Shown: positions 2,887 through 48,689 of the stretch, piece after piece
Position numbering within the stretch: the first letter of the stretch is position 1
Layout: each line of letters opens with the position of its first letter
DNA from: Leptodactylus fallax
Taxonomy: Eukaryota; Chordata; Amphibia; Anura; Leptodactylidae
Reading direction: 5' to 3'
NCBI GenBank assembly: GCA_947044405.1
Contig: CAMRHE010000505.1
Location: forward strand, 992,001-1,056,000
DNA: 64,000 nt
The notes under the pieces: model-generated
What the model was told of the DNA's origin: nothing
Database searches by the model: none
Seen by the model: only the letters and a program-made list of their open reading frames with translations
Program-made: the position numbers and the translations under genes

Positions 2887-3057
2887 TGTAATTCCTCTAT
2901 CCTGCAGGCTGGACTGGACAGAGCGGCCATCAAGTCACTGAAGTGAGGACCAGACAGATGGTTATAGGACAGGTCAAGTATCTTCAGGGACTGGTTATTC
3001 CTTATTACAGAGGCCAACTGGGTGCAGGAAGTGTCTGGTAGATTATTACTACCGAAA
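2887..3057 (-). CDS. NLR-L LRR exon (171 nt, ribonuclease-inhibitor type)
   Basis: On the minus strand a 171-nt open exon is bounded by acceptor TTCTTACAG (ending at 3058) and donor ACA|GTGAGTA (GT at 2886-2885). It encodes 57 residues with motifs such as NQSLKILDLSYNHLSG and SSPACRIEELQ, typical of NLRP-style leucine-rich repeats, and 171 nt is the standard exon size of that repeat class. Entry and exit are both phase 2, matching the phase in which the NACHT exon at 12125 ends, so direct splicing keeps the frame. LRRs in this family act in ligand sensing and autoinhibition. Only this one separate LRR exon is in the window; others may lie past position 1. The cysteine of the usual xLxxCxLT start is absent. 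Confidence 0.85.
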
Positions 3058-3179
3058 CTGTAAGAATAAGAAGATGAGAGTGAGTGATCTGTCCACAGAG
3101 CATTAATATAAAATCTGTAGATTATAAATGTTGAGAGAAAATGTCCCAGACTGTTATAAAATTCAGTCCTCACTAGAAG

Positions 3180-3510
3180 TCACCTCTAGGATTGTTGGCA
3201 GCTATGTGACACCAAATTCAAGTTCTAGAAATAAAGAATCCTTGAGTAATACCCTCAAGTAATAGCATGTCAGAAACCAGTGTTTATTGCAGTAAGTGGA
3301 ATATATAATGTTCATAAAACTTGATGGATAAATAAATTATCTATTACATCTCTCAGTCTGTGGCTCCTGTGTCCTCCATTCACCTCCTCTCTTCATATTA
3401 TTACATATCACATGTGGCTACTTTTGTCCTCTATTCACTTTCTGTCTTTATGTTACTACAAGTCACATGATGGAGCAGCAGTGACAATTACAGAATTTCA
3501 AGAAAAATTT
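3180..3510. other. Intronic sequence, nothing recognised
   Basis: Unique-looking AT-rich sequence between the LRR exon and the 312-bp satellite. No exon, RNA gene or clear repeat end was seen. Confidence 0.4.
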
Positions 3511-6500
3511 GTTAGGGACAAGAATCTCTCACATTGAGGAGAGCACCATTGAAGGTGTGTAGAGATTTTAATTGCCTTTCGCCCTCTACTTAGCATCTAC
3601 ATATCACAAGGCATTATGGGAAAGGAGCTGGGGAGCTCATGCGCCCTCTATTGGATGTAACAGATCCTCAATTTGCTTTTGACTCACCGAGCCTTAAGAC
3701 AGCAAAAGGGATCTTAGCCAAGCCAATTTCACTTATCTGCATACAGCGCTGTTTCCGGATTGTTGTCCTTCATCAGTACAGAGCAAAGTGAATTGGCTGG
3801 CTTAGTGGGAGGCAATGAGTGGGTTAGGGACAAGAATCTCTCACATTGAGGAGAGCACCATTGAAGGTGTGTAGAGATTTTAATTGCCTTTCGCCCTCTA
3901 CTTAGCATCTACATATCACAAGGCATTATGGGAAAGGAGCTGGGGAGCTCATGCGCCCTCTATTGGATGTAACAGATCCTCAATTTGCTTTTGACTCACC
4001 GAGCCTTAAGACAGCAAAAGGGATCTTAGCCAAGCCAATTTCACTTATCTGCATACAGCGCTGTTTCCGGATTGTTGTCCTTCATCAGTACAGAGCAAAG
4101 TGAATTGGCTGGCTTAGTGGGAGGCAATGAGTGGGTTAGGGACAAGAATCTCTCACATTGAGGAGAGCACCATTGAAGGTGTGTAGAGATTTTAATTGCC
4201 TTTCGCCCTCTACTTAGCATCTACATATCACAAGGCATTATGGGAAAGGAGCTGGGGAGCTCATGCGCCCTCTATTGGATGTAACAGATCCTCAATTTGC
4301 TTTTGACTCACCGAGCCTTAAGACAGCAAAAGGGATCTTAGCCAAGCCAATTTCACTTATCTGCATACAGCGCTGTTTCCGGATTGTTGTCCTTCATCAG
4401 TACAGAGCAAAGTGAATTGGCTGGCTTAGTGGGAGGCAATGAGTGGGTTAGGGACAAGAATCTCTCACATTGAGGAGAGCACCATTGAAGGTGTGTAGAG
4501 ATTTTAATTGCCTTTCGCCCTCTACTTAGCATCTACATATCACAAGGCATTATGGGAAAGGAGCTGGGGAGCTCATGCGCCCTCTATTGGATGTAACAGA
4601 TCCTCAATTTGCTTTTGACTCACCGAGCCTTAAGACAGCAAAAGGGATCTTAGCCAAGCCAATTTCACTTATCTGCATACAGCGCTGTTTCCGGATTGTT
4701 GTCCTTCATCAGTACAGAGCAAAGTGAATTGGCTGGCTTAGTGGGAGGCAATGAGTGGGTTAGGGACAAGAATCTCTCACATTGAGGAGAGCACCATTGA
4801 AGGTGTGTAGAGATTTTAATTGCCTTTCGCCCTCTACTTAGCATCTACATATCACAAGGCATTATGGGAAAGGAGCTGGGGAGCTCATGCGCCCTCTATT
4901 GGATGTAACAGATCCTCAATTTGCTTTTGACTCACCGAGCCTTAAGACAGCAAAAGGGATCTTAGCCAAGCCAATTTCACTTATCTGCATACAGCGCTGT
5001 TTCCGGATTGTTGTCCTTCATCAGTACAGAGCAAAGTGAATTGGCTGGCTTAGTGGGAGGCAATGAGTGGGTTAGGGACAAGAATCTCTCACATTGAGGA
5101 GAGCACCATTGAAGGTGTGTAGAGATTTTAATTGCCTTTCGCCCTCTACTTAGCATCTACATATCACAAGGCATTATGGGAAAGGAGCTGGGGAGCTCAT
5201 GCGCCCTCTATTGGATGTAACAGATCCTCAATTTGCTTTTGACTCACCGAGCCTTAAGACAGCAAAAGGGATCTTAGCCAAGCCAATTTCACTTATCTGC
5301 ATACAGCGCTGTTTCCGGATTGTTGTCCTTCATCAGTACAGAGCAAAGTGAATTGGCTGGCTTAGTGGGAGGCAATGAGTGGGTTAGGGACAAGAATCTC
5401 TCACATTGAGGAGAGCACCATTGAAGGTGTGTAGAGATTTTAATTGCCTTTCGCCCTCTACTTAGCATCTACATATCACAAGGCATTATGGGAAAGGAGC
5501 TGGGGAGCTCATGCGCCCTCTATTGGATGTAACAGATCCTCAATTTGCTTTTGACTCACCGAGCCTTAAGACAGCAAAAGGGATCTTAGCCAAGCCAATT
5601 TCACTTATCTGCATACAGCGCTGTTTCCGGATTGTTGTCCTTCATCAGTACAGAGCAAAGTGAATTGGCTGGCTTAGTGGGAGGCAATGAGTGGGTTAGG
5701 GACAAGAATCTCTCACATTGAGGAGAGCACCATTGAAGGTGTGTAGAGATTTTAATTGCCTTTCGCCCTCTACTTAGCATCTACATATCACAAGGCATTA
5801 TGGGAAAGGAGCTGGGGAGCTCATGCGCCCTCTATTGGATGTAACAGATCCTCAATTTGCTTTTGACTCACCGAGCCTTAAGACAGCAAAAGGGATCTTA
5901 GCCAAGCCAATTTCACTTATCTGCATACAGCGCTGTTTCCGGATTGTTGTCCTTCATCAGTACAGAGCAAAGTGAATTGGCTGGCTTAGTGGGAGGCAAT
6001 GAGTGGGTTAGGGACAAGAATCTCTCACATTGAGGAGAGCACCATTGAAGGTGTGTAGAGATTTTAATTGCCTTTCGCCCTCTACTTAGCATCTACATAT
6101 CACAAGGCATTATGGGAAAGGAGCTGGGGAGCTCATGCGCCCTCTATTGGATGTAACAGATCCTCAATTTGCTTTTGACTCACCGAGCCTTAAGACAGCA
6201 AAAGGGATCTTAGCCAAGCCAATTTCACTTATCTGCATACAGCGCTGTTTCCGGATTGTTGTCCTTCATCAGTACAGAGCAAAGTGAATTGGCTGGCTTA
6301 GTGGGAGGCAATGAGTGGGTTAGGGACAAGAATCTCTCACATTGAGGAGAGCACCATTGAAGGTGTGTAGAGATTTTAATTGCCTTTCGCCCTCTACTTA
6401 GCATCTACATATCACAAGGCATTATGGGAAAGGAGCTGGGGAGCTCATGCGCCCTCTATTGGATGTAACAGATCCTCAATTTGCTTTTGACTCACCGAGC

Positions 6501-6959
6501 CTTAAGACAGCAAAAGGGATCTTAGCCAAGCCAATTTCACTTATCTGCATACAGCGCTGTTTCCGGATTGTTGTCCTTCATCAGTACAGAGCAAAGTGAA
6601 TTGGCTGGCTTAGTGGGAGGCAATGAGTGGGTTAGGGACAAGAATCTCTCACATTGAGGAGAGCACCATTGAAGGTGTGTAGAGATTTTAATTGCCTTTC
6701 GCCCTCTACTTAGCATCTACATATCACAAGGCATTATGGGAAAGGAGCTGGGGAGCTCATGCGCCCTCTATTGGATGTAACAGATCCTCAATTTGCTTTT
6801 GACTCACCGAGCCTTAAGACAGCAAAAGGGATCTTAGCCAAGCCAATTTCACTTATCTGCATACAGCGCTGTTTCCGGATTGTTGTCCTTCATCAGTACA
6901 GAGCAAAGTGAATTGGCTGGCTTAGTGGGAGGCAATGAGTGGGTTAGGGACAAGAATCT
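3511..6959 (-). repeat. 312-bp satellite, 11 perfect copies plus 17-bp partial
   Basis: Units start at 3511 and then every 312 bp (3823, 4135, 4447 and so on to 6631), with a broken copy from 6943. By eye the copies show no substitution at all; lines 312 x 5 or 312 x 10 bases apart are identical. Such homogeneity points to very recent amplification or conversion, or to an assembly of collapsed or expanded repeats. Each unit carries a hammerhead-like ribozyme on the minus strand (listed separately). The array sits in the NLR-L intron between the NACHT exon and the LRR exon, with the ribozymes in the sense direction of that gene. Confidence 0.97.
3713..3805 (-). ncRNA. Type I hammerhead ribozyme motif, first of 11 copies
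   Basis: Read on the minus strand: the inverted repeat 3786-3805 / 3713-3734 forms a long outer stem I (two bulges, one mismatch). A 3x1 internal loop follows, then a 6-bp inner stem I (TCTGTA with TGCAGA, one G-U). Next are CTGATGA (3776-3770), stem II GGA/TCC closing a CAACAA loop, GAAA (3755-3752), the palindrome ACAGCGCTGT as stem III, and the cleavage site GTA ending at 3742. The order and the strand polarity match a type I hammerhead, and a minimal palindromic stem III is known from newt satellite and Penelope-like element hammerheads. Odd point: an A-G mismatch at the base of stem II, which may weaken activity. The same motif recurs at +312 x n up to 6833-6925. Confidence 0.75.
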
Positions 6960-7459
6960 GTGGCAGAATGTCAGTGTTCCTGTCAGTTGAAAAGTGAAGA
7001 ATTAAAAACAAACAAACAAAAAAAAACCTCCAAAATTATACCATCATTCCACCATCATCACGTTAAAGAAATGATTGAGAAAAGTGAAGACTTTTTTATA
7101 CTGAGGCTGTGCATTGGCCTTAATATTTAATATCACTGCTGCCACCACCTTCTTCCCCAGATGTCACCTTGACCAGGATGCCAGGTCTATCCGCAACATA
7201 ATTCTCTTTGGCAATGACATCATCTTTCCCATTTTTTTTTCTAACTCATCATGGCCGGGAGATTCTTCTCACACCCTCTTATTTCCCACCTCAAGCCCTT
7301 ACCAGCATGATTAATACCTGTACCCCCCGCCACTTCTATCTCCACCACCAGCATCATCAATAATGTTTTCAACACATGCTGCCTCCACCTCTAAATAAGG
7401 CTATCTGTTCTCATTCAACTCATCAAGAAGACTCGGGCAAGGATAAATATTTCACTCAG
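6960..7459. other. Intronic sequence, no gene seen
   Basis: Simple A-rich stretch at 6998-7026 followed by unique-looking sequence. Two short open frames here lack splice context and family resemblance. Confidence 0.4.
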
Positions 7460-7790
7460 CAGGTGGAAAAATTTGATTTGACCGATTTACCGAAGTTTCC
7501 AAAAAGATTTGCTTCGATCCGAATTAATTTGCGGCGAATAGTGTTAAAAAACAGCTATTTCCTGGCTTCAGAGATCCTGTATAGTGGTGTAGAACACTGT
7601 GCCTTGCAGTAACACACATAGGGAGCCTACTGTGGAAGTGAATCAATACTGTGAGTCAGTATGACACGCACATGACAGGCGTCGCTCTTAGAACCACTGC
7701 ACACTTCACTTATTTGGACAGTTACGGGGCCAAAACTGACCAACTAACTCAAGTGTGAACTCAGCCTTACAGGTCCATGCTAATGCCAGG
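7460..7790. mobile_element. Interspersed repeat fragment, probably hAT-like
   Basis: Sequence around TTTGCTTCGATCCGAATTAA and the GTGTGAACTCAGCCTTAC end has the character of the short hAT-like elements scattered in this window. No complete terminal repeats were delimited, so the class is tentative. Confidence 0.35.
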
Positions 7791-8488
7791 TATAAAGAAC
7801 CGTGCAGAGGCCCAAGATCCTACTGTAGCGTGAAAGAGCGCACTCCTTTTACACCGTCATCTACTGATTCCATATAGATGTCTATGGAATATTTTTTTCT
7901 CAGCAAGTTCCACATAACTACTATGGATCTGTGTCACTGAAGATGAAGAAGACATGATTTGTGTTACAACATTAGAGGAAAAGCACACAAAAGTCAGACT
8001 CAAGATTGTATCAGATGCAATATCCTCCTGTGACTAAGAGGTAATCAAAAACTTCATCTTCATTCCCAGGAAGTACTATCCTGAAGCTTCTGGCAGTGCC
8101 ACTACAACCAGAAGTAGTGTTGCCACCCACATTCTTATTGTTAGTACTTGCACAAGTGTTTCCTCCTCCGCCTGTCCCTCCCTGTTTTTTTTCCCAGTCA
8201 TTTTAATGTACACTGCTTCATTATAGTGGTTGGCAACAATTATGACACTGTGTGTCTTTTATTTGTTTTGTTTTTTACAAAAAAAATTTTTAAAAATCAA
8301 GAAACGTTGCAGAGTACTAAAAGGGTGACCTAGTCAGTGACTATTAGATTAGAACTGCAACAGGCAACTTGTTTCTTTTGCCCTTAAAATGGCTGCAGTT
8401 TGTATGTATATTGGTTAACCAAAATAAAAAAAACCTTAAACATATTAGTAGGCTGCGACACACTGTTTATTAGGTGCAAAAAACGCCC
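7791..8488. other. Intronic sequence, nothing recognised
   Basis: No exon or RNA gene was seen. The segment ends with CTGCGACACACTGTTTATTAG, a motif that recurs in diverged form near 8950 and 9032, so parts are low-copy internal repeats. Confidence 0.35.
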
Positions 8489-8930
8489 TTAAAAGGGACC
8501 TTTCACTATCTCCACCAATTAAATTTCTTAGCATCTGTGAATATGTGCCGCTCCACTGATTCCAGTACAACTGGATTTTGTTCTCTAGCTCCCACCTTTC
8601 CTGAGCAACAAGCACAAGCATAATGTACTATTTAATCACTGTAATGTCAATAGAGCAGTGTCAGGGAAAGGGTGTGATTCAGAGCTCCAATCAGAGGCAG
8701 CCAGTGTCAGAGCTCAGAATCACACCCCTTGTCTGCTCCTGCCTGACACCGCCATCCTGACATTCTGAGTCTAAATAGTATATGAACCACCAAAACTAAC
8801 AGCATTGATTGCTTGGGAATAGTGGGGACTAGAGAAAAAAAATTCCAACTGTGCCAGATTCAGTGAAACAGCAGCTATCACTTGTTGTAAAGAGCTTGAG
8901 ATGTAGGAAGTGGTGAAATGTCCTCTTTAA
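8489..8930. mobile_element. MITE with TTAA ends (piggyBac-like?)
   Basis: The 442-bp unit starts TTAAAAGGGACCTTTCACTA and ends TGGTGAAATGTCCTCTTTAA, imperfect inverted repeats both ending in TTAA, the target favoured by piggyBac-type elements. A related but decayed copy lies at 11873-12112. There is no open reading frame. Confidence 0.6.
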
Positions 8931-9475
8931 CAAACATCATTTTTTCTGTGTCACACTGTTTATTAGGTGAGCAAAAAAAAAAAAAAGATTATGGCAGGTG
9001 TAAGAAAGATTTTTTTTTTTAGATTAGCAAGCTCTGTCACACTCTTTATTGAGTGAACAAAGAAAATAGCCCTTATATAACAGATTTTTTTTTTTCAAAT
9101 TAGTGACACAATCAGCATTTTACTGTTACAAAAGTGTTTTTCACTAATTCACTTTGTCAGTAAAAACTATGTTTAAACATTCTGCATATAGATTAATCTA
9201 CTCTTACAAAACAGACTTAGAAAAAAATTACATTATTGCCAATAAAAGGATTAACTGACCTTTGTCTGTCTGTATTACTTCTGCGGTCAGGCTCACACAG
9301 TACAGATATTCTCACTCCTATCTATGATTTCAATCAATAATCTGTCTCTAACTGATTAAATCTGACTAAACTGTGTTCTACTTTGCCTGCTCCTAGCTCT
9401 ATCGCAAGCTTAGCAGCTCTCAAACATGCATTGAGATGAATAACACATTCATCGCCTACTTCCGCCATTACTGAA
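8931..9475. other. Diverged repeat-like intron sequence, no gene
   Basis: Contains poly-A and poly-T runs and two further copies of a CACTNTTTATTRRGTGARCAAA motif. It partly resembles sequence at 45400-45600. No coding exon is visible. Confidence 0.35.
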
Positions 9476-9766
9476 ATGCCTCATGTTCCTGCCCGCAGCA
9501 CTTTATATATTGTTTATGATATCAGCACTGTAAAGTGTCCACCTGCCACTGATTATTGGCTGAGAGGCTTTCAGGTGGTTCCAGAACATCACAAGACACA
9601 TGCTGCTTCTGTATTTTTCTGTGCTATACATGTGGCTACGACCATTTTAGTTTATCCAAGGGAAATCTCCAATTATCCGGTTTTGTTAAAAACAAGAACA
9701 ATTTGGAATATTTGGGTAGATACAGCTCATGACGAATTGGTTTGCTCATCTCTACCCTTAATGTAA
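9476..9766. mobile_element. hAT-like interspersed repeat, copy 1
   Basis: The region ends in TTGGTTTGCTCATCTCTACC and contains TTGGCTGAGAGGCTTT and a CTATACATGTGGC-like block. The same blocks occur in opposite orientation at 43855-44140 (GCCTCTCAGCCAATA, GCCGCCACATGTA). This is one dispersed family whose end reads TAGAGATGAGC on the other strand, a motif common at the ends of amphibian hAT-like repeats (from memory, not searched). Confidence 0.55.
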
Positions 9767-10540
9767 AATTGCTTAATTCAGATGTTAAAAGACATTTGAC
9801 GTTACAGGAGCTCTGTAGGTTACATATAAATATTGCATTTGTACAATAATCTCATTATGACTGCGGGCTCATTTAACTTTGCAAAATGCAGCTGCTGGGG
9901 ACTTTAATATTCTTTTTTAAATAAAATTTTGAAATAGTCCCTCCTCTACCTGATCTCCGACCTCTTTGGTGCTTGCCCTACTGTCAGGGGGGTTTTTGCA
10001 ATCTCATTTGTTATCAAGCGCTATACGATTTATGGCACGTCAATAATCCCACTGTCAATAATATACTTTTTTCTCTGAAATTCTCCTAAACTATTTATCC
10101 GAGAATGAATCTCCAGACATTTCAGTCACAGTTCTCTGGAGGAAATGCATTTCTATTGCCACTCAACTGAAATAAAAAACTGGTGTGTGACAGGTTGTGC
10201 ATGAGAAGGAGCTGCACTTGAAGCCTTCCTTGCTTAAAATCTATTTAGATCCCTCTTAAAATGGGTCATTGACTTCCACTCAGCTTTACACTTTATCATC
10301 AATCAAGGTGAATAATGGATGGGATGGAAGTTCTCCTCTTGAATTCAGATACGGAGAACACCTTCGATATTCTCATGTGGTCGTTTATGTTTCATATTCT
10401 GAAACAGTTTGACTTTGAGGGTCAGATGTTATGGGCGGTGGCCTCTACTTCTCACCATTTGTGACTATCCGCCTTTTTAACAACCATTCTCGACCCTTGC
10501 AGATTCAAAATGAGACATTGCAAGGTTCCCCTTCCTTTAA
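9767..10540. other. Intronic sequence, no gene seen
   Basis: No exon or clear repeat end is apparent. It leads into the 48-bp minisatellite. Confidence 0.35.
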
Positions 10541-10544
10541 GCTG

Positions 10545-11660
10545 ACAGTGTCATACACTATGTTTTATAGATGTACAGTCCTAGGAGCCCTAAGAGTGTC
10601 ATACACTATGTTTTATAGATATATAGTCCTAGGAGCCCTGACAGTGTCATACACTATGTATTATAGATATAGTCCTAGAAGTCCTGACAGTGTCATACAC
10701 AATGTATTATAGATATATAGTCCTAGGAGTCCTGACAGTGTCATACACTATGTATTATAGATATATAGTCCTAGGAGCCCTGACAGTGTTATACACTATG
10801 TATTATAGATATATAGTCCTAGGAGACCTGACACTGTCATACACTATGTTTTATAGATGTACAGTCCTAGGAGCCCTAAGAGTGTCATACACTATGTTTT
10901 ATAGATATATAGTCCTAGGAGCCCTGACAGTGTCATACACTATGTATTATAGATATAGTCCTAGGAGCCCTGACAGTGTCATACACTATGTTTTATAGAT
11001 ATATAGTCCTAGGAGTCCTGACAGTGTCAAACACTATGTATTATAGATATATAGTCCTAGAAGTCCTGACAGTGTCATACACAATGTATTATAGATATAT
11101 AGTCCTAGGAGTCCTGACAGTGTCATACACTATGTATTATAGATATATAGTCCTAGGAGCCCTGACAGTGTTATACACTATGTATTATAGATATATAGTC
11201 CTAGGAGACCTGACACTGTCATACACTATGTTTTATAGATATATAGTCCTAGGAGTCCTGACAGTGTCAAACACTATGTATTATAGATATATAGTCCTAG
11301 GAGCCCTGACAGTGCCATACACTATGTTTTATAGATATATAGGCCTAGGAGTCCTGACAGTGTCATACACTATGTATTATAGATATATAGTCCTAGGAGT
11401 CCTGACAGTGTCATACACTATGTATTAAAGATATATAGTCCTAGGAATCCTGACAGTGTCATACACTATATTTTATAGATATATAGTCCTAGGAGTCCTG
11501 ACAGTGTCATACACTATGTATTAAAGATATATAGTCCTAGGAATCCTGACAGTGCCATACACTATGTATTATAGATATATAGTCCTAGGAGTCCTGACAG
11601 TGTCATACACTATGTATTATAGATATATAGTCCTAGGAGCCCTGACAGTGTCATATACTG
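10545..11660. repeat. Minisatellite, 48-bp unit, about 23 copies
   Basis: Tandem units around AGTCCTAGGAGCCCTGACAG with TGTCATACACTATGTATTAT recur every 48 bp (for example 10577 to 10625). Because 48 is divisible by 3 the array gives long open frames (SYTMYYRYIVLG repeated) that are artefacts. Blocks of neighbouring units are duplicated together, indicating higher-order expansion. The same unit occurs at about 2050, 48690-51140, 62120-62425 and 63190-63400. Confidence 0.95.
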
Positions 11661-11872
11661 TTTTGAGACAATATAAAATCTGATTTGTTACAAACGTATT
11701 CAACCAGAAACACATCTGTGGATGAAACCACCTGGATCTGAAAAACTGCATCCTTCAGGTCATTCGACCCATCTCTGGGTTCCAAAGGCAGAAATGTTAA
11801 ATGACCCCTCTCTGGGACTTCTAGTGTTAAGAGGTTTGCCCATCTCTATTTGCTGCATCTATATAATGGACC

Positions 11873-12112
11873 TTAAAGAGGACCATTCACCACTTCCACC
11901 AATTCAAGTTCTTAGCATCTGTTAATAGGCTCCATTGCTTTGATTCTAGCGCAGTTAGTTTTGGTGCCAAAACTAACAGCATTGATTGCTCAGGAATGGT
12001 GGGGGCTATACAGAGAAAAGTCTAACTGCGACAGAATCAGTGAAGCAACAACTATTAAATGATACAAAGAGCAGGATTTGTTGGATGTGGTGAAACAGCA
12101 ACATAAAATTTA
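11873..12112. mobile_element. Decayed TTAA-type MITE next to the NACHT exon
   Basis: Begins TTAAAGAGGACCATTCACCA and shares the blocks CCACCAATT and TTCTTAGCATCTGT with the element at 8489-8930. The right end is degraded. It reaches within about 15 bp of the splice donor of the NACHT exon. Confidence 0.5.
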
Positions 12113-12124
12113 ATTAGTACTTAC

Positions 12125-13823
12125 CTCAAAATCTGTAAGTTGTTTAAACCTAGTGCAAGTCTCTCTAATCCTTCAGTGTTTAAAGAACATCCAGATAGAT
12201 CAAGTTCTTTTATATTTGTGCAGGTTTCCATGACATATGCTAACACTGTACAGTCTAGAGCTGACATGTGATCACCAGAAAGGTCCAATTTTCTGTATGA
12301 TTGTAATGATTCCAGCACTAGATCCTTATTCCGGCTTTCAAACAGATAGAAAAATGTATTAAGAAGATGTCTCTTCTGGTCTTTGCCTTTGATCAGTCTC
12401 TGTTCTTCTGGAATGAAGTTCTTCAGCCAAGTGATAACATCTCTGGAAGTCTGAGCTGCTTGTTTGTCCAGGTATCCAGTTAGTATTGACCTGGTGGAGG
12501 TGTCTGATAGACCACACAGGAAACGGAGGAACATCTCACCACGTCCATCAGGATAGGATTTGGCTTCTTCTAGTGATTTCTGTAACTTCTCAGGAGAATA
12601 ATCTGTATAATGGACCAAGGCAGAGAAGAATTCCTGAACAGTGAGATGTAAGAAGGAATAGGTTACAGATTCCTCCGATTCCATCAGAAAACTTGATAAG
12701 AGCTTTGACTTATTGTCCACATGGAAAGAATCCAGATCTCGATCATCAAAAATAACCCTGTGATTCATGACTCCATGTTCTGCCATCCATCCGATGGACT
12801 GCAGGATCTTCTGAGCGTCACTTTTCTCCAGGCTGTGATTGGACAGAATGTTGGCGACAAATATGGCAAAGAGCTGTGTCACTGTTCTGGGTAATAATGT
12901 CACCTGCTGGTCACTACTTGTTGTCTGGAAGCTCCTGGATAATACAGTACAGATGATCCAGCAGTAGGACGGGAGGTAACAGAACGTGTACAAGGTGTCA
13001 TTCTGCTTCACATAAGTAAAAGCCTTTTCTGACAGTTCAGGGTTGGAGATGAAATTCTCAAAGTAAATCTGTCGTTCTTCTGGAAGAAACCCAGTGATTT
13101 CTACTATTCTCTGGAAGACTGTACAATCAATTGATGCCAGTCTGGTTGGACGACTGGTCATTAAGACAGAACAACCATTAAGAAGAGACTTTCTCACCAA
13201 ACTAACCACAATCTGACCACAATGTTCGAGCTGTTTAGGATTAGAGCACAAGTGACGTGATGTGAAATCCATTGTATGATTGCTTTCATCTAATCCATCA
13301 AATATAAAGAGAAGTTTCTCTGGATCTTGTAAGATGTTCTCCAGCTGCTCCTCCAGATATGGGTACTGATGAAGGATCATGGTCTCCAGACTAACCTTAT
13401 CCAGTCTGTTGAGTTCCCGGAATTTGAAGAAAAAGACAAAAGAGAATCTTTGATAGAGATCGCCCTTCACCCAGTCATAGACAAACTTCTGCATCAGTGT
13501 GGTCTTCCCTACACCGGGCACTCCGATCACCATTACCATATGTGGTACAAGTCTGGATTGGTGACACCAACGGAACATCTTGTTGGGGGAAATACGCTGT
13601 AATTTACTTTGCGAACCCTTTAAATATTCCTCATGTTTTGCCCCGGTCTCTATGAGCTCATTCTCAGAACGTTTCCAAAAGTGATCAGTGGTGACAATGA
13701 TGAGGTTCACAAAGCGTGTAGAGAAGGGGAAACTGTCCTCTCCCTGATTACATCTTGGAGGTTTGTTCTCTATAAGTTTCTCAGTTTGTTTATATAAATG
13801 TTTCTTGTGACAGTTCTGGATAT
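12125..13823 (-). CDS. NLR-L FISNA-NACHT exon with first LRRs
   Basis: A 1,699-nt uninterrupted exon between acceptor TTTCTACAG (13832-13824) and donor GAG|GTAAGT encodes about 565 residues. In order: a FISNA-like N-terminal segment (about residues 1-90 of the exon product), Walker A GVPGVGKTT, Walker B FIFDGLDE, the TSRP sensor motif, a winged-helix FLHLTVQEF motif, and two LDLSG-type leucine-rich repeats at the end. This is the ATP-binding oligomerisation module of an NLRP-type cytosolic immune sensor; ATP-driven assembly into an inflammasome-like ring is family knowledge. The open frame extends to a Met at 13869, but the splice acceptor and phase (completing a GAT codon) show the exon starts at 13823. 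No stop or frameshift is present, so NLR-L looks intact here. Confidence 0.95.
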
Positions 13824-46864: not shown

Positions 46865-47090
46865 CTTCACTTTTAGGCTGAGGCCCCACATTGCGGAAAC
46901 GCAGCTTTTTTTTTGTTGCAGTTTTTTGAGCCAAAGCCAGGAGTGGATTGAGCAGAAGGGAGAAGTAGAAGAACTTCCTTTATGTTTCCCTTTCCATTTG
47001 TAGACATTCTTGGCTTTGGCTTGAAAAAGCGCAACAGAATCTGCAACAAAAAAGCTGTGTTTCTGCAACGTGGGGCCTCTGCCTTATTCA
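46865..47090. mobile_element. Palindromic MITE (GCTGAGGCCCCACATTGCGG family), copy 2
   Basis: GGCTGAGGCCCCACATTGCG, AACGCAGCTTTTTT and TTTTGAGCCAAAGCCAGGAG are mirrored by CTTGGCTTTGGCTTGAAAAA and AAGCTGTGTTTCTGCAACGT with GGGGCCTC. The long imperfect inverted repeat makes it a foldback element. Other copies: 35540-35650 (partial) and 63405-63615. Confidence 0.8.
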
Positions 47091-47553
47091 GATTTTTTTA
47101 GTGGAAGAGTGAAGAAATCAGGCGATACCTTTTAGAGGCTAACTGAGTATATTTATAAGTAAGCTTTCAGGAGTACTAGCTCCCTTCATCAGACATGGTG
47201 TGATACAAGAACTGAAAATTCACAGATTTTTATACACATGGTCTTCAAAGCATTTTAGAGTCCTTAAAAAAAAAAAAAAAAAGCCAAAACAAAATGCAAT
47301 CGAAGTAGTAGAGAAGTTATTTACAACAGGTCAAAAAACAATCTGGAAAGTTGTGGTGCGTGACAGAGGGATCTGTTATCTGTTTGCTATCAGGAGGTGA
47401 TTTGTGACCCTCACAGGTCATACATAGTGTGACATGAAGCTGGCATGAATATTAAGTCCAAATTGCAGAGTTTGAAATTTTTCCATAAACTTGTATTCTG
47501 ATTCTTTCCTTTTTTCCTGCGTCTTAAAATGTCCCATTAAAACCACAACCCGG

Positions 47554-47886
47554 GGGACATTCTCCTGCAGGTCTTCCAATGTGGTGTACCTCATAATGTG
47601 TACGCAATGTCCCACCACAGGCCTCTATGTGGGGGAAACAGGGCAGAGACTCGGTCAACGAATGAACTCACACAGATCCAGCATTAATAACAGAACCGAT
47701 CTCCCAGTGGCCGCACATTTCTCCGGAGAAAACCACTCTATTGAAGATTTGCGGGTTGTGGTTTTAATGGGACATTTTAAGACGCAGGAAAAAAGGAAAG
47801 AATCAGAATACAAGTTTATGGAAAAATTTCAAACTCTGCAATTTGGACTTAATATTCATGCCAGCTTCATGTCACACTATGTATGA
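47554..47886 (+). pseudogene. GIY-YIG endonuclease fragment of the Penelope-like element
   Basis: The plus frame gives SSNVVYLIMCTQCPTTGLYV, GETGQRLGQRMNSHRSSINN, RTDLPVAAHFSGENHSIEDL and a tail MGHFKTQEKRKESEYKFMEK ending at TATGTATGA. VYL and YVG correspond to the GIY and YIG motifs, with the following Arg and a distal Glu as expected for the nuclease that nicks target DNA. The part before residue 20 comes from the inverted arm and is not original coding sequence. The RT that should precede it is missing. Confidence 0.8.
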
Positions 47887-48102
47887 CCTGTGAGGGTCAC
47901 AAATCACCTCCTGATAGCAAACAGATAACAGATCCCTCTGTCACGCACCACAACTTTCCAGATTGTTTTTTGACCTGTTGTAAATAACTTCTCTACTACT
48001 TAGATTGCATTTTGTTTTGGCTTTTTTTTAAGGACTCTAAAATGCTTTGAAGACCATGTGTATAAAAATCTGTGAATTTTCAGTTATTGTATCACACCAT
48101 GT

Positions 48103-48140
48103 CTGATGAAGGGAGCGAGTACTCCTGAAAGCTTACTTAT
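48103..48140 (+). ncRNA. Hammerhead-like motif in the Penelope-like element (right arm)
   Basis: CTGATGA (48103-48109), a GGAG/CTCC stem around a CGAGTA loop, then GAAA (48127-48130) and a palindromic AGCT in place of stem III. The left arm has the same on the minus strand (47165-47192). Stem I pairing is weak, so this may be a degenerate or very minimal ribozyme. Penelope-like elements are known to carry minimal hammerheads. Confidence 0.35.
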
Positions 48141-48205
48141 AAATATACTCAGCCTCTAAAAGGTATCGCCTGATTTCTTCACTCTTCCACTACTCTCAAT
48201 GGCTA

Positions 48206-48689
48206 ACACGGTACAACATTATACTACTATCAGATTTTTTTAGGAAGGCAAAGCAGCGAAAAACTCCAATTCAGCCATTTTGATTTTGTTCCTGTTACAG
48301 TGTTTTTACCGTATGGGACAAATGTTTTTATATCTTAATAGTTTGGGCATTTTTCGGACTTAGGGATGTTCAATGTGTTTATCTATATTTATGTGTTCTA
48401 GTGAATGAGGTTGATTTAAACTTTTTTTATTTTTTTTTTTTCGTAAATTTTTTTTAAATATTTAGAAAAAATTTTTTATATTCTTCTACTTTTTTTTTTT
48501 TTTTTTTTTGTTTAGCCTGTAGAGGGCTTGAACATGCAATGTTCAGATCACTTGTGCCATAGACTGCGATACTACTCTATAGCAGATTCCTTATGTAACT
48601 ATTGAAGCCTGCTGTAGGTAGGGGTTACTGTCCATTTTTCTATAGATATACAGTACAGTACATGTCACTGTCTCTTTAACATAACTTCA
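48206..48689. other. Poly-T rich sequence, flank of the 48-bp element
   Basis: Several T runs (48423-48440, 48490-48510). From about 48650 CATGTCACTGTCTCTTTAAC to AGCTATAAATTAG matches 1980-2060, so it is the left flank of the 48-bp minisatellite element. Confidence 0.5.

Follow-up and report, generated by a model that had tools for sequence, protein, structure and literature searches.

An intron of an NLR gene in the frog Leptodactylus fallax contains eleven identical 312-bp units, each with the parts of a hammerhead ribozyme on the sense strand of the gene, which raises the question of how such an array reached the intron and whether it serves the gene. The array lies in the window, meaning the whole 64,000-nucleotide stretch analysed here (assembly GCA_947044405.1, contig CAMRHE010000505.1, forward-strand positions 992,001 to 1,056,000). 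Its probable history (about 0.8) is that a frog retrozyme inserted here recently, the machinery of a Penelope-like element (PLE) having copied an RNA circle from one or both of the cut target strands. The main result is that the retrozyme and a PLE of the same genome share insertion traits and a target; the array, its ends, the target-site duplications (TSDs), the mostly uniform turns and the shared target preference are all read directly from the assembly.

A hammerhead homologue in every unit

The array runs on the minus strand at 3511-6959, with its 3' end at 3511 and its 5' end at 6959, and comprises 11 units of 312-bp period with 0 mismatches among them plus 17 nt, exactly the coordinates, period and copy number given in a preliminary description made from the sequence alone. 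Unit GC content is 46%. The minus strand of each unit carries, in order, CTGATGA, a GGA/TCC stem II, GAAA, the palindrome ACAGCGCTGT and the GTA before the predicted cut, within a stem I that has a 16-bp outer part with two bulged bases, a 3x1 loop and a 6-bp inner part. This is the type I core (CUGANGA...GAAA...NUH, with stem I open). One such 85-nt homologue, taken from outer stem I to outer stem I, occupies 3717-3801 (minus strand) and recurs every 312 bp as far as 6837-6921; its predicted cleavage point lies at 3741-3742, between GTA (3742) and TGCAG (3741), once per 312 bp. A hammerhead descriptor matched the 11 array places and no other part of the window, while 400 dinucleotide shuffles of the window with one unit kept gave 2 matches, and 0 when the outer stem I was required. 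Single-strand folding of the unit recovered stems I and II. The layout given in the preliminary description is confirmed.

The base of stem II departs from the standard pair, with an A.G opposition at 10.1/11.1. This doubt, already voiced in the preliminary description, is real: across the young family the A is present in 197 of 198 units read and the G in 199 of 200, whereas older relatives have G-C. Mispairs at this place have precedents in the literature: U.U occurs in an axolotl motif (PMC7229834), and U-U is said to allow more cleavage than other mispairs, with natural U.U exceptions (PMC3088659). Judged by its sequence, the young family is a hammerhead homologue without a canonical stem II base and a putative ribozyme. 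A genome-wide search with Rfam Hammerhead_1 gave 0 matches, but its controls matched nowhere either and the result is uninformative; an exact 20-mer of the hammerhead core was absent from viral_contigs.

The older relatives came to light at a locus where a PLE adjoins a piece akin to the unit, whose base at 10.1 is G. A search with this older piece (locus L058) gave 1365 first-look candidates, of which 40 were scored and 8 small pieces from 6 listed places taken. All 8 read GGGA-CAAAAA-TCCC and then GAAA, which forms a G10.1-C11.1 pair, and CTGATGA, or TGATGA where cut short, is present in all 6 pieces long enough (4 places). The two longer pieces, the only ones submitted to Rfam, scored 29.7 and 29.1 bits (E 8e-6 and 1.3e-5) over the full RF02275 Hammerhead_HH9 model, both below its gathering score of 52. 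HH9 is counted among the intronic ribozymes of humans. Stems I and III stay paired where young and old copies differ, with an exchange of G.U for G-C in the former and of A-U for G.U in the latter. Because its older relatives have a canonical core, and the two tested match HH9 below its gathering score, the unit is taken as type I hammerhead kin. The older relative (L058:1-126; for example C67:3466589-3466844) resembles a short element that folds back on itself and has a hammerhead as its tip, since the flanks outside stem I form an inverted repeat; three copies stand on contig C12 at 2065-bp spacing.

A dispersed family with one-way and head-to-head arrays

Searched against the genome, the unit yielded 725 first-look candidates, of which the 40 best were scored (at least 241 matches); the 40 loci described here are the window and 39 listed places outside it. 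The family is dispersed and multi-copy, and its TSDs, where present, exceed 4 bp, as given for retrozymes by Cervera and de la Pena 2020 (PMC7229834), where PLEs appear as strong candidates for the mover. Tandem type I hammerhead units of 150-450 bp with GC below 50% are likewise typical of retrozymes, and the unit agrees, its stem II exception aside. The element is best filed as an animal (metazoan, non-long terminal repeat) retrozyme.

Twenty-five of the 40 loci are two-arm arrays, with head-to-head inverted arms, and 15 run one way. In all 25 two-arm loci the minus arm comes first, placing the hammerhead 5' ends inside and the 3' ends outside. Sixty-four outer ends could be counted after exclusion of the degenerate locus L009; in bins set after the data were seen, 36 lie at site A (unit positions 130-155), 19 at site B (222-235) and 9 elsewhere. 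Sites A and B together account for 55 of the 64, that is, two preferred sites as in PLEs. By their two ends, 16 of the two-arm loci are A with B, 7 are A with another place, one is A twice and one has neither. In the window, site A of one unit (positions 136-147), the most frequent array 3' end at other loci, corresponds to 3595-3606, and site B (positions 223-234), the second preferred 3' end and the one used by the window array, to 3508-3519, both on the minus strand. Positions 138-145 and 224-233 are predicted to be unpaired in the circular fold of the unit. The inner ends are scattered but overrepresented just 3' of A, where 128-172 holds 23 of 64 against 9.2 expected, in a bin likewise chosen afterwards. 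The two arms at locus L034 have 15.3 and 7.3 turns. The arrays of L017 and L022 contain extended runs of C and groups of small insertions that resemble assembly errors, and array copy numbers elsewhere may likewise be off.

The window array is of the one-way kind and ends on the unit at position 231 (3' end, in site B) and position 215 (5' end). It interrupts an interspersed repeat, of which three copies elsewhere continue without interruption from the base of 3510 to the base of 6960; these empty-site copies also define the left (3486-3510) and right (6960-6990) target halves. The three copies thus show that 3449 bp were inserted in the window, with 0 bp duplicated and 0 bp deleted. A 15-bp TSD considered for the window was rejected: it stems from the 17-nt terminal repetition of the array itself, and the duplication judged from the empty site is 0 bp. 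Compared with the majority unit across the 40 loci, the window unit has a single difference, A for C at position 193, shared by 11 of 11 units (at 3549 and every 312 bp thereafter); 193A is the majority base at none of the 39 other loci. The intron sequence next to the array (3342-3469) is like a tandem repeat that is abundant on contigs C271 and C551 (about 77-84% identity).

Duplications and a symmetric target

A TSD of at least 12 bp flanks 24 of the 25 two-arm loci, 15 of them having exactly 13 bp, while only 2 of 400 random edge pairings reach 12 bp. The combination of head-to-head arms and TSD expected of PLE-type integration is thus present at these 24 loci. Among the 15 one-way loci, three have 13-14 bp, four 9-10 bp and seven 7 bp or less or none; the window has none. 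The flanks suggest a target CTGWC|T-N11-A|GWCAG. A matrix built from the left half-sites of 15 loci gave the held-out right half-sites a score of 0.52, against -7.5 (standard deviation, sd, 1.4) at shifted positions. Since the right half-sites fit a matrix trained on the left ones, the target is two-fold symmetric.

A Penelope-like element with the same target preference

A PLE copy with a GIY-YIG frame lies in the window itself at 47100-48229 (plus strand) and also has two head-to-head arms, a minus arm at about 47100-47552 and a plus arm to 48229; it is flanked by TCAGATTTTTTTAG at 47088-47101 and 48230-48243. A search with the 3' part of this element gave 1792 first-look candidates, of which 40 were scored; 20 of the 38 other listed places were taken, 4 of the 20 being picked because two arms were visible. 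The main arms end at query positions 667-678 in 21 of 21 copies (the query ends at 678) and the inverted arms at 630-638 in 8 of 9, which is read as ends with and without a tail. TSDs of 12-17 bp, two with one mismatch, accompany 8 of the 9 two-arm copies; 0 of 72 cross pairings give one.

A matrix built solely from retrozyme targets scores 29.3 on the targets of these 8 PLE copies, against -42.4 (sd 12.8) at random places, where 0 of 3000 score as high. Right half-sites of 12 further PLE copies, the second arm of which lies outside the stretch taken, score 3.21 against 1.60 (sd 0.60), a level reached by 20 of 5000. The target preference is therefore common to the retrozyme and to the PLE of the same genome. 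The partner of the retrozyme may be this PLE family or a sister with a like taste.

The motif CTGATGAAGGGAG...CCTGAAAGC is found in 21 of 21 PLE copies, in the window at 48103 (plus strand) and 47192 (minus strand). It probably represents a minimal hammerhead of the PLE itself, in which 10.1/11.1 is A-U; Rfam did not match it.

The template of the arrays

Variants within the arrays bear on the molecule that was copied. The majority base at position 46 is T in 20 loci and C in 20, and the position is uniform in 47 of 49 multi-turn arms, the remaining two having one altered turn each. Altered turns aside, it agrees between arms at the 22 two-arm loci readable in both. Private variants also fill arrays, for example 193A in 11 of 11 window units and 34T in both arms of L043. 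The variants in arms of at least two turns comprise 30 that fill every turn, 150 confined to a single turn and 27 of intermediate spread, among which are alignment effects at L017 and L031 and length changes of the position-35 T run (L016, L027, L044). Substitutions unfixed within arms number 62 in 55,830 nt (7 poorly aligned arms omitted), so that the scored copies are young.

Arrays continue across the cleavage junction in 203 places, and of the 64 inner ends only 1 falls within 5 nt of this point; thus, the template was closed, or uncut, there. The orientation indicates that the template was the hammerhead-sense strand, because copying from a DNA primer begins at the RNA 3' side, which lies outside. 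As far as the DNA can tell, a circular template is a better reading than a long uniform linear multimer.

Proposed mechanism and its alternatives

The RNA circle, its cleavage and the PLE protein as the agent are the parts of the explanation that we infer. The hammerhead would cut transcripts of older arrays, probably weakly, as dimers with a palindromic stem III, or with the help of protein, and the cut transcripts would close into 312-nt circles. A Penelope-like protein would cut the two target strands about 13 bp apart at the roughly palindromic site CTGWC|T-N11-A|GWCAG. Each free DNA 3' end could then prime reverse transcription at A or B on the circle for several turns; joining of the two cDNAs would give a head-to-head array with a 13-bp duplication, and use of one end only would give a one-way array, as in the NLR intron. 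The broader proposal, that a PLE protein integrates animal retrozymes by double-ended, target-primed, rolling-circle reverse transcription of one ribozyme-made circle with head-to-head joining of the cDNAs, is held with less assurance, at somewhat better than even odds.

LINEs (long interspersed nuclear elements) or PLEs have been named as candidate movers of non-autonomous animal retrozymes (PMC7229834, PMC11722881), and the behaviour of PLEs elsewhere fits the mechanism in several respects. For a lizard PLE, Frangieh 2024 (PMC11167929) reports cutting and extension of both strands, with reverse transcription begun at two internal sites that match the tail. Arkhipova and colleagues 2013 (PMC3846280) describe rotifer PLE copies as mostly head-to-head; one end may carry a tail, and the TSDs measure 8-10 bp. 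The hammerhead of the lizard PLE cuts only with protein present, and cutting is unnecessary for insertion in vitro (PMC11167929); these findings caution against assuming that the weak-looking frog hammerhead works alone.

A number of observations weigh against insertion of the array by PLE machinery from an RNA circle. The transcript, the circle and the cleavage are all predictions from DNA. The A.G opposition stands at the base of stem II in nearly all young copies; the covariance search proposed in the preliminary description, which gave a match in 2 of 2 older relatives below the gathering score, matched no hammerhead family in the window or the array, at gathering scores or at E up to 5 or 10; and the circular fold is not unusually stable against 200 shuffles (minimum free energy -80.8 against -74.9, sd 4.8, z -1.2; 27 of the 200 as stable or more). 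Choosing the best matches biases the 40 loci towards young copies, and the bins for A and B followed the data. The window has no TSD, and 7 of the 14 other one-way loci have 7 bp or less or none. Turns are imperfectly uniform, with 27 variants in two or more but not all turns, among them two substitutions at L011 in 2 of 8 turns, and the two L009 pieces disagree at position 46. On the PLE side, no TSD was found for copy L049, the target of L068 scores at chance level, the two end sites are about 38 nt apart against 90 nt between A and B in the retrozyme, and the frog motif differs from the AT-rich ATT sites favoured in vitro by the lizard element (PMC11167929). Between the retrozyme unit and the PLE 3' part, exact matches reach at most 10 nt, CTGATGAAGG among them, and a 24-nt ungapped stretch with at least 17 identities is absent.

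Finally, uniform turns could also come from a uniform linear multimer transcribed from an already uniform array. The hammerhead would then be dispensable for movement, and the lizard PLE does use unprocessed RNA in vitro, its hammerhead mutants still inserting (PMC11167929). Uniform parent arrays would give uniform daughters, but for the arms of 15.3 and 7.3 turns at L034 and the 11 units of the window, in which no compared site varies, both the parent arrays and their transcripts would have to be very long and uniform. An uncut linear template is thus a minority possibility, at about one chance in five.

Movement of the retrozyme by a LINE is less likely still. Twin priming by L1 gives head-to-head copies with TSDs, the arrangement seen here. 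A PLE accounts better for TSDs that centre on 13 bp and for a two-fold symmetric target, and in the comparison made here, which covered PLE copies, the PLE of the same genome matches the retrozyme in TSD length, two-end pattern and target.

Tandem identical units, the A.G at the stem II base and the want of an Rfam match for the unit would also suit a satellite that spreads and homogenises as DNA, by unequal crossing-over or DNA circles, with the hammerhead as a roleless fossil. This is improbable: DNA circles predict neither the TSDs near 13 bp at 24 of 25 two-arm loci nor the two preferred outer ends, the head-to-head order in 25 of 25 or the L043 variant in both arms.

The least likely explanation is that the array is retained because sense-strand cleavage tunes the joining of the NACHT and leucine-rich repeat (LRR) exons of the gene: the sense orientation in an intron and the conservation of intronic hammerheads in amniotes (PMC3088659) speak for it, but the zero divergence among units, the dispersed family and the interspersed-repeat target mean that the insertion looks recent.

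The NLR gene around the array

The NACHT exon of the NLR gene lies on the minus strand at 12125-13823 (upstream limit approximate), with a donor TTGAG|GTAAGT at 12125, and its product has 88% identity over 97% with Leptodactylus fuscus proteins. A 171-bp LRR exon follows on the same strand at 2887-3057, with the acceptor CTTACAG|TTTCGG; the next LRR exon is about 10.6 kb beyond it. The 9.07-kb intron between them (3058-12124) holds the array with its hammerheads in sense orientation. Donor, acceptor and exon positions uphold the sense-strand placement between NACHT and LRR exons proposed in the preliminary description. The type I hammerhead and the kinship of its layout with amphibian repeat hammerheads and PLEs, also proposed there, are supported as well. 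The further suggestion that cleavage influences NACHT-LRR joining is unsupported: the array reflects a single insertion into an interspersed repeat by a mobile family with dispersed copies, and nothing among the results of this analysis links it to the function of the gene. Elsewhere in the window, a long hairpin at 22054-22156 matches mir-26 on both strands below the gathering score and is probably an inverted-repeat element, not a microRNA.

Relation to known systems

Hammerheads in tandem repeats and in vertebrate introns have been described before (PMC7229834, PMC3088659); the new part is the insertion anatomy of the 40 loci. A literature search, with subscription papers and supplements outside it, turned up neither retrozyme arrays in head-to-head order nor a pair of fixed retrozyme end sites or a retrozyme TSD of 13 bp. 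The mover of non-autonomous animal retrozymes has so far been a proposal, and the insertion scars described here, which supply a stagger, a target and two start sites, point to PLE machinery. They suggest that a uniform, satellite-like array could arise in one insertion and not by slow homogenisation. If true, double-ended rolling-circle integration is a distinct, one-step way to make both tandem and inverted repeats.

The axolotl retrozymes Rtz_331 and Rtz_353 and newt satellite 2 likewise consist of tandem units of about 300-350 bp with low GC, and share a type I hammerhead with a tiny stem III, the loop being palindromic in one axolotl motif (PMC7229834). The frog retrozyme stands apart from them, in a comparison of described features and not of sequences, by the A.G stem II base, the head-to-head arms, the two end sites and the 13-bp TSD. 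With PLEs it has in common head-to-head inverted copies, the cutting and extension of both target strands proposed here, two internal starts of reverse transcription and, in PLEs, a tail at one 3' end (PMC3846280, PMC11167929). Unlike PLEs, it is non-coding and 312 nt long, with arms of up to 15 turns and end sites 90 nt apart, not about 38.

Among intronic hammerheads, RF02275 Hammerhead_HH9 is matched by the two older relatives at E of about 1e-5, below the gathering score. The amniote hammerheads of RECK and C10 are single conserved copies, whereas the frog family is mobile and multi-copy (PMC3088659). Both have been suggested to derive from a hammerhead element of ancestral amphibians that is still active in some frogs (PMC3088659). 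The scars of the frog retrozyme suggest a route by which sense-strand ribozymes enter vertebrate introns, a suggested source of such conserved intronic hammerheads.

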